From the NCBI RefSeq assembly GCF_015694405.1, contig NZ_JADQDB010000006.1, forward strand, positions 248,001 to 312,000: a stretch of DNA of 64,000 bases, written 5' to 3'. The position numbers and the translations under genes were made by a program. A model generated the notes under the pieces. That model had not been told where the DNA came from, did no database searches, and was given only the letters and a program-made list of their open reading frames with translations. Position 1 is the stretch's first letter; every line of letters begins with the position of its first letter. Source of the DNA: Pelagibacterium limicola (GTDB taxonomy: Bacteria > Pseudomonadota > Alphaproteobacteria > Rhizobiales > Devosiaceae). Below, piece by piece: positions 10,222 through 13,372 of this stretch.

Positions 10222-11520
10222 TCAGTGGAACTGAGCGGCCTCGGTTGATCCGGTCATGGCGGTGGTTGCCGCCCGGCCCTGGCTGACAGCGGTCGCCACC
10301 GCATCGAAATAGCTCGTGCCCACCTCGCGCTGGTGCCGCGTTGCCGAGAACCCGTTGGCTTCGGCGGCAAATTCCGCCTGCTGCAGCTCGGAATAGGCCG
10401 CCATGCCCCGCGCCTTGTAGCCGCGCGCGAGGTTGAAGGTCGTGAGCGACAGATTGTGGAATCCGGCGAGAGTGATGAACTGGTATTTATACCCCATCGC
10501 CCCCAGTTCGCGCTGGAAAGCTTCCATTTCCGCTTCGCCCATATATTTGGCCCAGTTGAACGAGGGCGAGCAGTTATAGGCTAGCATTTGGTCGGGGTGT
10601 TCCTTTCGGATCGCCTCGGCAAAACGTTTCGCGTCCTCAAGGTTAGGCGTCGAGGTTTCGCACCAGATGAGATCGGCATAGGGCGCATAGGCAAGCCCGC
10701 GCGCAATGGCCGCTTCAAATCCGCCCTTAAGGCGGTAAAAGCCCTCCTCGGTCCGCTCACCGGTTATAAACGGTGCATCGTACTCATCGATATCGGAGGT
10801 AATGAGCTGGGCCGCCTCGGCGTCGGTGCGCGCCATGATGAGAGTCGGCACTCCCATGACGTCGGCGGCGAGCCGCGCGGCATTGAGCGTCTTGACGAAG
10901 GTGCGGGTGGGGACGAGCACCTTGCCGCCCAGATGCCCGCACTTTTTCTCGGATGCCAACTGGTCCTCGAAGTGCACCGCCGCGGCCCCTGCTTCGATCA
11001 TCGCCTTCATCAGCTCAAAGACATTGAGCGCGCCGCCGAACCCGGCCTCGGCGTCGGCAATGATCGGCACGAAATAATTGGTATCGGCGTCGGACTTGCC
11101 TTCGAACCGCTCCATCGTCTGGATCTGGTCGGCTCGCTGGAGCGCCTTGTTGATGCGCTTGACGACCGCCGGAACAGAATCGACAGGATAAAGTGATTGA
11201 TCGGGATACATGTTGCCCGACGAGTTGGCGTCCGCCGCCACCTGCCAGCCCGAGAGATAGATCGCCTTCAGACCCGCTTTGATCTGCTGGACGGCCTGGT
11301 TGCCGGTAAAGGTTCCGAGCGTCGGGACGTAGTCCTCCGTATGAAGCAGCTCCCATAGGCGCCGCGCCCCGTTTTCGGCCAGCGTATGGCGGATTTGCAG
11401 CGAGCCTTTGAGCTTTTCGACGTCGAGCACGGAATAATCGCGCCTGATCGTGCGCCACCGGTCCGGTGCCCAATCGGGGGCGGGAAAGGTTTCCGGCGCG
11501 GTCTGGGGCTTGTCGAGCAT
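10222..11520 (-). CDS. aceA: Isocitrate lyase
   Basis: A 432-residue enzyme that cleaves isocitrate to glyoxylate and succinate, the first glyoxylate-shunt step, needed for growth on acetate or fatty acids. The catalytic signature [11 protein letters not shown] is visible (about residues 190-200), as are metal-binding [20 protein letters not shown] and YNCSPSFNW. The length is typical of the short bacterial form. It is preceded by a small gene on the same strand and divergent from a RamB/ScfR-type regulator. Malate synthase is not in the window. Confidence 0.97.
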
Positions 11521-11573: not shown

Positions 11574-11798
11574 TTACGCCCCGGCTCGCCGGGCAAAGGT
11601 CGCGGCAATCATCTTGGCGCCGTTGAAAAGGGTTTCGCCCCCGGCGAGGGTAAAGCTGTGCTTTCCGCCCCGATGGACAATGGCGTATTCCCGCTCCGCC
11701 AGCCCTTGGGCCGCAAAGCTCTCCATCACCTCAGCCATCGAGGGCGCGATGATGGTGATGAAGTCTTCGTCCGGGATATCTGTGGTCATGGCGTTCAT
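11574..11798 (-). CDS. Small hypothetical protein upstream of aceA
   Basis: A 74-residue protein, 53 bases upstream of aceA on the same strand, so very probably in its operon. The start at 11798 is supported by GAGGAG seven bases upstream; an earlier in-frame Met at 11813 would overlap that site. The protein is soluble, with an acidic N-terminus (TTDIPDEDF) and a compact [30 protein letters not shown] core. No domain is recognised. The context suggests a role linked to isocitrate lyase or its regulation, which is inference only. Confidence 0.75.
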
Positions 11799-11904
11799 CG
11801 CCGTTCTCCTCAAGCGTAGGGTGCAAGCAGTCCTGCCTGCCTTAAGTAAAGAATTGACAAAATGACGGTTTGTTGCAAGATAAATAGTGAAATCAGCTAG
11901 TTAA

Positions 11905-11954
11905 ACTGTAAAGCCTTGCAAAGAATGGGCAGCGGACTTGTAAAGATTGTAAAG
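11905..11954 (+). promoter_or_regulatory. Array of four TTGYAAAG-like repeats, putative ScfR/RamB sites
   Basis: Four related 9-mers lie in direct orientation: ACTGTAAAG (11905-11913), CTTGCAAAG (11915-11923), CTTGTAAAG (11937-11945) and ATTGTAAAG (11946-11954). They form two close pairs and the last one touches the ribosome binding site of the regulator gene. RamB/ScfR-family regulators are known to bind TTTGCAAA-like motifs, so these are good candidates for autoregulation and control of aceA. A further TTGCAAG is at 11873-11879 and a perfect -35 (TTGACA) at 11854-11859. Confidence 0.6.
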
Positions 11955-11968
11955 AGGAGGCGCTCGAA

Positions 11969-13372
11969 ATGACCGCGACCGAGCCGCAGATCGGAGGCAG
12001 GATCAAGCGCTTGCGGCGCTTGAAGGGCGTTTCGCAGGCCCAGCTCGCCGAAGCGCTCGACATCTCGGCAAGCTACCTCAACTTGATCGAACATAATCGT
12101 CGCAGGATCACCGTACCGCTCCTCTTCCGGACAGCGGGCTATTTCGGCGTCGAGCCGGGCGAGCTGGCCGAAAGCGACGACGGGCGGCTGGTGGGCGACC
12201 TGATGGAGCTTTTTGGAGACGATATCTTTGCCGATGCCGACCTCACCAACCAGGATATTCGCGATCTCGCCGCCAACCATCCTGCCGTCGGGCGCGCCGT
12301 CCTCAAGCTTTTCGACCACGTCAGGCACCTGCGTAGCCCCGAGGCGCGCACTGAGACGGCGCCCGAAACCGGGCATAACGTCGTCACCGAAGCGGTTTCC
12401 GACTTCCTGCAGGAAAACGCCAACCATTTCCCTGCACTCGAAACGGCGGCCGAACGCGTGCGGCACGATATCGACAATGCCGCGGAACGGTTTGAAGAAG
12501 GCCTGCGCGTCTGGCTTTTCAACGTCTTCGGCATCGAAACAAGGCTTGCCTCGCTCCCCAATGGCGTAATGCGGCGGCTCGAGGGGGGCGGGCGCGTGCT
12601 GGCCATCGCCGATACGCTCGAGCCGGAATCCGCGCTTTTCGTGATGGCCCAGCAGGCGGCGCTTCTGGCCGCCAAAGCCGAGATCGACCGGCTGATCGAA
12701 ACCAGCACCCTGCCCCAGCCCGACGCCGTCCCCCTCGCCCGCAATGTGCTGGCGTCCTATACGGCAGCGGCGCTGATCATGCCCTACGAGGCGTTTTACA
12801 CCGCCTGCCGCAACACCCGCTACGACATCGAGCGGCTGGGCCGCCGTTTCCGCGCCAGCTTCGAGCAGGTCTGCCACCGGATGACGACGCTCCAGCGGCC
12901 GGGCATGGCCGGCATCCCGCTTCACTTGGTGAGGACCGACATCGCGGGCAACATTTCCAAGCGATTTTCGCTCTCGGGCATTCACATCCCGCGCCATTCG
13001 GGCGCCTGCCCGCGCTGGAATGTTTATTCCGCCTTCCTCAACCCCGGCCAGATCAACGTGCAGCTTTCCCAGATGCCCGACGGGCAACGCTTTTTTTGCA
13101 TCGCCAAAGCGATAACCAAGGGCGGCTATGCCCATAACGCCCCACGCCGCCACATCGCCATCGGGCTTGGCTGCGCGATTTCCCATGCCGCCAATATGAT
13201 TTATGCGGAGGGGATCGACCTCGATGCGCCATCTGGTGCGGTACCGATCGGGGTGGGCTGCCGCATCTGTCCGCGCATGGAATGCGGCCAGCGCGCCCAT
13301 CCTCCCGCTGACCACCGCTTTTCTGCCGATACCGGAGAGCGCATGGAAAATCTTTATATGCAGCGTGGCTGA
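11969..13372 (+). CDS. RamB/ScfR-type XRE family regulator (short-chain acyl-CoA)
   Basis: A 467-residue transcription factor. Residues 10-65 form an XRE helix-turn-helix (SQAQLAEALDISASYLNLIEHNRRRI). A long ImmA/IrrE-like middle region follows, with LIMPYEAFYTACRNTRYDIERLGRRF but no HEXXH. The C-terminal DUF2083 part has the Cys cluster GCRICPRMECGQRAHPP. RamB of actinobacteria controls aceA/aceB, and ScfR members such as PccR of Rhodobacter sense short-chain acyl-CoA. Its position divergent from aceA supports control of the glyoxylate shunt here. The start has GAGGAGG upstream. Confidence 0.88.
   Translation: MTATEPQIGGRIKRLRRLKGVSQAQLAEALDISASYLNLIEHNRRRITVPLLFRTAGYFGVEPGELAESDDGRLVGDLMELFGDDIFADADLTNQDIRDLAANHPAVGRAVLKLFDHVRHLRSPEARTETAPETGHNVVTEAVSDFLQENANHFPALETAAERVRHDIDNAAERFEEGLRVWLFNVFGIETRLASLPNGVMRRLEGGGRVLAIADTLEPESALFVMAQQAALLAAKAEIDRLIETSTLPQPDAVPLARNVLASYTAAALIMPYEAFYTACRNTRYDIERLGRRFRASFEQVCHRMTTLQRPGMAGIPLHLVRTDIAGNISKRFSLSGIHIPRHSGACPRWNVYSAFLNPGQINVQLSQMPDGQRFFCIAKAITKGGYAHNAPRRHIAIGLGCAISHAANMIYAEGIDLDAPSGAVPIGVGCRICPRMECGQRAHPPADHRFSADTGERMENLYMQRG

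Follow-up and report, generated by a model that had tools for sequence, protein, structure and literature searches.

The window, by which we mean the whole stretch of Pelagibacterium limicola DNA that was analysed (64,000 nucleotides), carries at 11905-11954 an array of four short repeats between two divergent transcription units. On the minus strand lie aceA (10222-11520), encoding an isocitrate lyase of 432 aa (NF011645, 745 bits against a cut-off of 562; PF00463), and, nearer to the array, a 74 aa open-reading frame (ORF; 11574-11798), the predicted first gene of the aceA operon, whose product is a conserved small protein of no named family, with no Pfam or NCBIfam match at E ≤ 0.001. On the plus strand lies the gene of a RamB-like ScfR regulator of 467 aa (11969-13372), which has the ScfR domain order, with an N-terminal HTH domain (PF01381), an IrrE-like middle (PF06114) and a C-terminal ScfRs domain (PF09856). 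The initial annotation of this DNA had proposed a regulator of the RamB/ScfR kind standing divergent from aceA; PF09856 confirms the ScfR family, and the divergent aceA is upheld by NF011645 and by its recurrence in 33/33 loci of the same bacterial family.

All four repeats are on the plus strand, ACTGTAAAG at 11905-11913, CTTGCAAAG at 11915-11923, CTTGTAAAG at 11937-11945 and ATTGTAAAG at 11946-11954, and their TGYAAAG cores start at 11907, 11917, 11939 and 11948, giving spacings of 10, 22 and 9. The plus strand of the whole window holds six TGYAAAG, four of them in the array inside 48 bp, and dinucleotide shuffles of the window (n = 60) reached at most two per 50 bp. The four same-strand repeats of the initial annotation can thus be read directly from the DNA and are backed by the shuffle control, and its half-sites, paired at roughly one helical turn, are there, with periods of 10 and 9. 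Repeats 1 and 2 form Box B (11907-11921, plus strand, TGTAA-N5-TGCAA), whilst repeats 3 and 4 form Box C (11939-11952, plus strand, TGTAA-N4-TGTAA), 32 bp from Box B. Judged from these letters, the unit of the array is two boxes, in each of which a TGYAA half-site is directly repeated, with a B-C period of 32 bp, or about three helical turns. The TTTGCAAA-type motif of PrpR/RamB, to which the repeats had been assigned, is absent from 11799-11968, where the element is TGTAA-N4/5-TGYAA, and a class 1 RamB or PrpR-type site (the TTTGCAAA palindrome, or TTTGCGAA) was rejected with 0 occurrences in that interval. Across the genome of P. limicola, TGYAAA-N24..26-TGYAAA has three matches, two being the array and one the promoter of a second ScfR gene, and the reversed-pattern control has five, so the raw genome count is not significant by itself.

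The best NCBIfam model for the regulator is NF038139 (RamB) at 394 bits, below the cut-off of 700 bits; the proven RamB of Paracoccus denitrificans scores 427 bits and likewise falls below it, so this cut-off does not decide here. The regulator matches PrpR of Mycobacterium tuberculosis (MtPrpR) over residues 67-455 (E 1.3e-75), and its C347, C431, C434 and C439 align with all four [4Fe4S] ligands of MtPrpR, being identical at each (PDB 6cyy; PMC6765138, in the part of the paper available). Of the five listed MtPrpR CoA-contact residues two are identical (R322 and K331), one is changed from K to R and two differ. The systems diverge in other respects: MtPrpR controls the methylcitrate cycle whereas the window regulator adjoins aceA, and the MtPrpR site given in the same available part is TTTGCAAA-N1-TTTGCgAA, a site whose TTTGCAAA portion is absent from 11799-11968.

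Conservation of the boxes and the flanking genes

We compiled 78 loci, 33 belonging to the family of P. limicola, of which 12 fall in its genus, and 45 belonging to different families within the order and class, each with the 200 bp upstream of the regulator. These were taken from the best 30 of 67, best 30 of 37 and best 30 of 85 listed places in three regulator searches, in which 21/61, 260/297 and 263/337 genomes gave no match at the set limit; the remaining places numbered 37/67, largely other ScfR genes, 7/37 and 55/85. Before counting, we removed the duplicates of the P. limicola locus (L001, L034, L035, L056) together with L009, which is almost a copy of L008. At E ≤ 1e-120 a regulator gene of this kind is present in 74/337 genomes of the class. 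In L060 the start codon is missing at the aligned start, which leaves its start-codon distance unsure, and in L014, a same-genus genome, the regulator match carries one in-frame TAG.

A B/C pair at a period of 31-33 bp (shuffle p ≤ 0.01) was found in 33/33 best-match family loci, which are not independent because 12/33 belong to the own genus, and in 31/45 of the others, with the two-box test failing in 14/45 distant loci; these figures, like the Ccr counts given below, depend on the sequence limits used to collect the regulators. The initial annotation had named a lack of conservation of the repeats as one refutation, and they recur in the best-match loci just counted. Distances between TG[TC]AA half-sites, taken with no alignment, point the same way: in the 33 best-match family loci the leading distances are 32 (21/33), 9 (21/33) and 61 (17/33), against a maximum of 3 in 300 shuffle sets, and half-site distances of 9, 10, 32 and 61 all stand strongly above the shuffles, whilst in the 45 best-match other loci distances of 8, 9, 32, 40 and 41 lead (9 to 13 loci each). 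In L032, L050 and L054 Box B reads TGTAAAT-N1-ATTTACA, an inverted repeat, which shows that half-sites can take either orientation.

The initial annotation stands as regards the four repeats, and to them is added a further box that it did not contain. Box A (11845-11859, plus strand) is a half-site pair, AGTAAAGAATTGACA, scoring 10/10 with the layout (T/A)GTAA-N5-TGACA and a period of 10, and lies 62 bp upstream of repeat 1, beyond the putative aceA promoter. At a score of 9/10 or better it occurs in 33/33 family and 22/45 other best-match loci, compared with 0.5% of shuffles, and in family loci its distance to repeat 1 is held at 60-63 bp; it is missing in 23/45 best-match non-family loci, all 23 among the class-level loci. 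A broader Box A consensus gave 33/33 family loci (shuffled 24/660) and 21/45 others (shuffled 20/900), and a displaced-position control at eight positions in 47 non-family loci, including two from Paracoccus, returned 0, 0, 0, 2, 0, 0, 4 and 0. We did not find this well-conserved part described in the literature text passages that were searched, as far as these were available.

The genes on the aceA side are conserved to different depths. Both aceA and a homologue of the 74 aa ORF lie divergent from the regulator in 33/33 best-match family loci; amongst the 45 best-match loci of other families, within the fetched flank, an aceA match is found in 41 (35 at at least 60% identity) and the small ORF in 18, leaving four with no aceA and 27 with no small ORF, and in all 74/78 best-match loci have an aceA match beside the regulator. 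Eight homologues of the ORF were aligned; its structure model has a beta-alpha-beta-beta order (mean pLDDT 84) with no PDB match at E ≤ 0.001, and a plasmid search with the ORF gave no match. The proposal that aceA is the controlled gene draws support from its divergent position and needs one amendment, in that the first gene driven would be the 74 aa ORF and then aceA. Six loci (L032, L049, L050, L051, L054 and L055) retain the small ORF and repeats resembling the boxes, but the next gene is only 29-36% identical to aceA, as though aceA had been exchanged there for an isocitrate lyase of another subfamily. SMc00767 of Sinorhizobium meliloti, which we take to be a short ORF and regulator adjoining aceA, was reportedly studied together with aceA by Ramirez-Trujillo in 2007, and may or may not be related to the 74 aa ORF.

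Related operators and the second ScfR gene

The operator of P. denitrificans RamB provides a direct comparison. According to the available part of Kremer et al. 2023 (PMC10370305), this RamB requires a pair of boxes set apart by an 18-bp spacer; it acts as an activator of the glyoxylate-cycle operon on acetate and restrains the operon on succinate, and ramB expression is very low under all conditions tested. With box sequences from the oligos of Table 3 of that paper, in the portion available, the P. denitrificans DSM 413 genome reads AGTCAGTATTGTCA-N18-TGTAAGGTTTGTCA-C-ATG directly ahead of ramB; in P. versutus DSM 582 the second box is unchanged and the first slightly different. The P. denitrificans operator and that of the window have in common a 9-bp half-site period, a 32-bp box period and a box beside the regulator start, and in both the ScfR regulator and glyoxylate-cycle genes are divergently arranged. 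Two traits of class 2 RamB proteins (PMC10370305) are found here: a pair of nearly identical boxes separated by an 18-bp spacer (32-bp period, 11907 to 11939), and clustering with glyoxylate-cycle genes, in this case through the adjoining aceA. The window differs in that its regulator is 38% identical to P. denitrificans RamB, in that its operon runs from the 74 aa ORF to aceA rather than from malate synthase to icl, and in its third box, where the available part of PMC10370305 describes two boxes and no third.

Grouping by sequence with P. denitrificans RamB, a further class 2 trait, was not seen in a tree of 36 ScfR proteins, the backbone of which is partly weak. There P. denitrificans RamB falls with MccR, PrpR and a Streptomyces ScfR (96/95), whilst the window regulator falls in another clade, mostly with own-family and own-order loci; we therefore call it RamB-like, presumably acting as the P. 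denitrificans system does, and do not file it as class 2, and any transfer of function from P. denitrificans RamB crosses ScfR subgroups. RamB of Azospirillum lipoferum lies next to a same-class locus (L076) in this tree, and in A. lipoferum 4B the regulator and aceA again diverge, and the region separating the two contains several TGTAA half-sites. In both Paracoccus genomes, 60 bp upstream of the first box, stands TGTCACAGTAGTAA, which has a full score against a relaxed Box A consensus and is suggestive only, since the consensus was relaxed with this string in view and 38/4000 shuffles score at least 9. Between the RamB boxes and malate synthase of P. denitrificans (L087), ~57-73 bases upstream of ramB, there is also a perfect inverted repeat, ATTGCTTT-G-AAAGCAAT.

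The second ScfR gene of P. limicola has a comparable promoter. A half-site pair exactly 32 bp apart lies upstream of its start in 15/15 promoters (L033, G000:C5, ~1501-1560, and L096-L109), these being the own promoter and 14 picked from amongst the weaker regulator-search matches, and a pair at 31-33 bp occurs in 0/750 shuffles of them, with a pattern that was fixed post hoc with the sequences in view. Autoregulation through boxes spaced by 32 bp looks like a shared habit of both ScfR proteins, going by these promoters, and cross-talk between the two regulators is possible. Malate synthase and acs had been suggested as further genes at which the pair might be found, and neither suggestion gained support: no box-pattern match lies within 400 bp upstream of the start of malate synthase G (glcB), whose operon promoter may lie further away, and acs was rejected as a co-target, the site near an acs-like (acetate--CoA ligase-like) gene being that of the second ScfR gene, from which this divergent gene is about 0.84-0.9 kb away (measured to site or gene). 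At two mismatches the genome holds four single-box matches besides the array, and the reversed-pattern control three, so we propose no regulon; two single-box contexts (L092 and L095) were inspected and neither was convincing.

Putative promoters, proposed operator function and alternatives

The putative promoter of the aceA operon lies between Box A and the array, with a -10 element TATCTT at 11877-11882 (minus strand; conserved columns TGCAAGA) and a -35 element TTTAAC at 11900-11905 (minus strand; a conserved GTTAAG/GTAAAG block beside repeat 1), separated by a 17 bp spacer. On the plus strand, TTGACA within Box A is a candidate -35 for the regulator gene, and AAGATA at 11877-11882, 17 bp after it, may serve as the matching element. 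A consensus sigma-70 promoter scan found no promoter, the putative ones included, which fits an activator-dependent promoter and proves nothing.

Sequence comparison shows the boxes, their spacings, their conservation and an arrangement matching that of the experimentally proven P. denitrificans RamB operator. We consider it quite probable that the repeats serve as operator for the RamB-like ScfR regulator encoded beside them, placed between its gene and the divergent 74 aa ORF and aceA, with boxes B and C activating aceA, binding repressing the regulator's own gene and Box A adding repression. The regulator would bind as dimers or a tetramer. With transcription of the aceA operon starting near 11870, boxes B and C would be centred at ~-44 and ~-76, on about one helix face, such that regulator bound there would sit just upstream of the aceA-operon -35 and activate when short acyl-CoA is high. 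Box A would fall at ~+12 to +26 of the aceA transcript, and the regulator promoter, its -35 supplied by the TTGACA of Box A and its -10 at the position used for aceA, would overlap that of aceA, with the regulator transcript predicted to begin near 11889 on the plus strand. Autoregulation is plausible from this layout: binding would repress the regulator gene because B and C lie in its leader and Box A over its -35. Box A would presumably serve repression by bridging or as a roadblock, keeping aceA off together with B and C when ligand is lacking.

How the regulator's own gene would be repressed bears on one feature that the initial annotation stressed, the contact of repeat 4 with the ribosome binding site. 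The first G of the Shine-Dalgarno GAGGAG (11954-11959, plus strand; 9 bases before the ATG at 11969) is indeed the last G of repeat 4 (11954), and the P. denitrificans box nearest ramB stops one base short of the ATG, so that bound regulator might be thought to hide the ribosome binding site or start of its own gene. As the main route of autoregulation this is very unlikely: a Shine-Dalgarno-like string ends repeat 4 in 9/33 best-match family loci only, repeat 4 stands anywhere from 1 to 49 bases from the start codon there whilst the box spacing stays at 31-33, and a DNA-bound repressor acts on transcription, not on a free ribosome binding site. The shared G is real, then, and the contact, going by its patchy conservation, is incidental. 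A heavier objection concerns Box A, which might be no regulator site at all, TTGACA being a plain -35 of the regulator promoter and the preceding TGTAAA part of the same promoter. TTGACA does rank amongst the best-conserved elements ahead of the regulator gene within the family and has its hexamer 17 bp downstream, and 23/45 distant loci keep no Box A although the two-box pattern is retained in 31/45. This account is nevertheless somewhat doubtful in our view, as Box A has the box layout and period and its fixed distance to repeat 1, the similar string TGTAAATTCATTGACA at the second ScfR gene ends 11 bases ahead of the start codon (L033) and is too close to be a -35, and P. denitrificans has an element at the equivalent place without TTGACA.

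Which protein occupies the array is the other question. Given TGTAAA/TGTCAA half-sites 32 bp apart at the second ScfR promoter in every genome examined there, the specificities of the two regulators look similar, and the array might be bound by the second protein (G000:C5) instead of, or besides, the adjacent regulator, or be common to both; we regard this as improbable, since the array adjoins the divergent regulator gene across families, mostly with aceA, and the second ScfR gene carries its own site. Least credible of all is AT-rich chance sequence or the site of an unrelated regulator such as PhaR. The AT-rich letters are the sole point in its favour, and the shuffle and displaced-position controls speak against chance. 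PhaR was considered for its action on central carbon genes in S. meliloti and rejected, its core YGCRNYGCR being absent from 11799-11968 (both the action and the core from the available part of PMC12542648).

The published RamB trigger is an intermediate of the ethylmalonyl-CoA pathway (PMC10370305, in its available part). The P. limicola genome has no crotonyl-CoA carboxylase/reductase (Ccr) over the cut-off, and at E ≤ 1e-100 Ccr is found in 4/78 locus genomes and not in 74/78, the own included, with a positive Caulobacter control; flux through that pathway is therefore unlikely as a general trigger, and a ligand derived from it is unlikely here on the gene content of the genome.

Overall, the array is, in its sequence features, a known switch in variant form, and for one well-conserved part of it we found no description. 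More tentatively, the three boxes may work as a switch on two overlapping divergent promoters, in which a ligand-free RamB tetramer bridges Box A to B and C and keeps aceA off, whilst short acyl-CoA leaves dimers on B and C that activate aceA and hold the regulator gene low. Were this true, the signal in genomes lacking the ethylmalonyl-CoA pathway would be acetyl- or propionyl-CoA itself. We found one paper on operator dissection in this group (PMC10370305, available in part), and the species studied there has a second pathway that is unusual. The third box offers a concrete possible reason for the published double role of activator and repressor, and if the three-box switch holds, the box-like element 60 bp from the proven boxes in Paracoccus could explain how RamB both activates and represses there.
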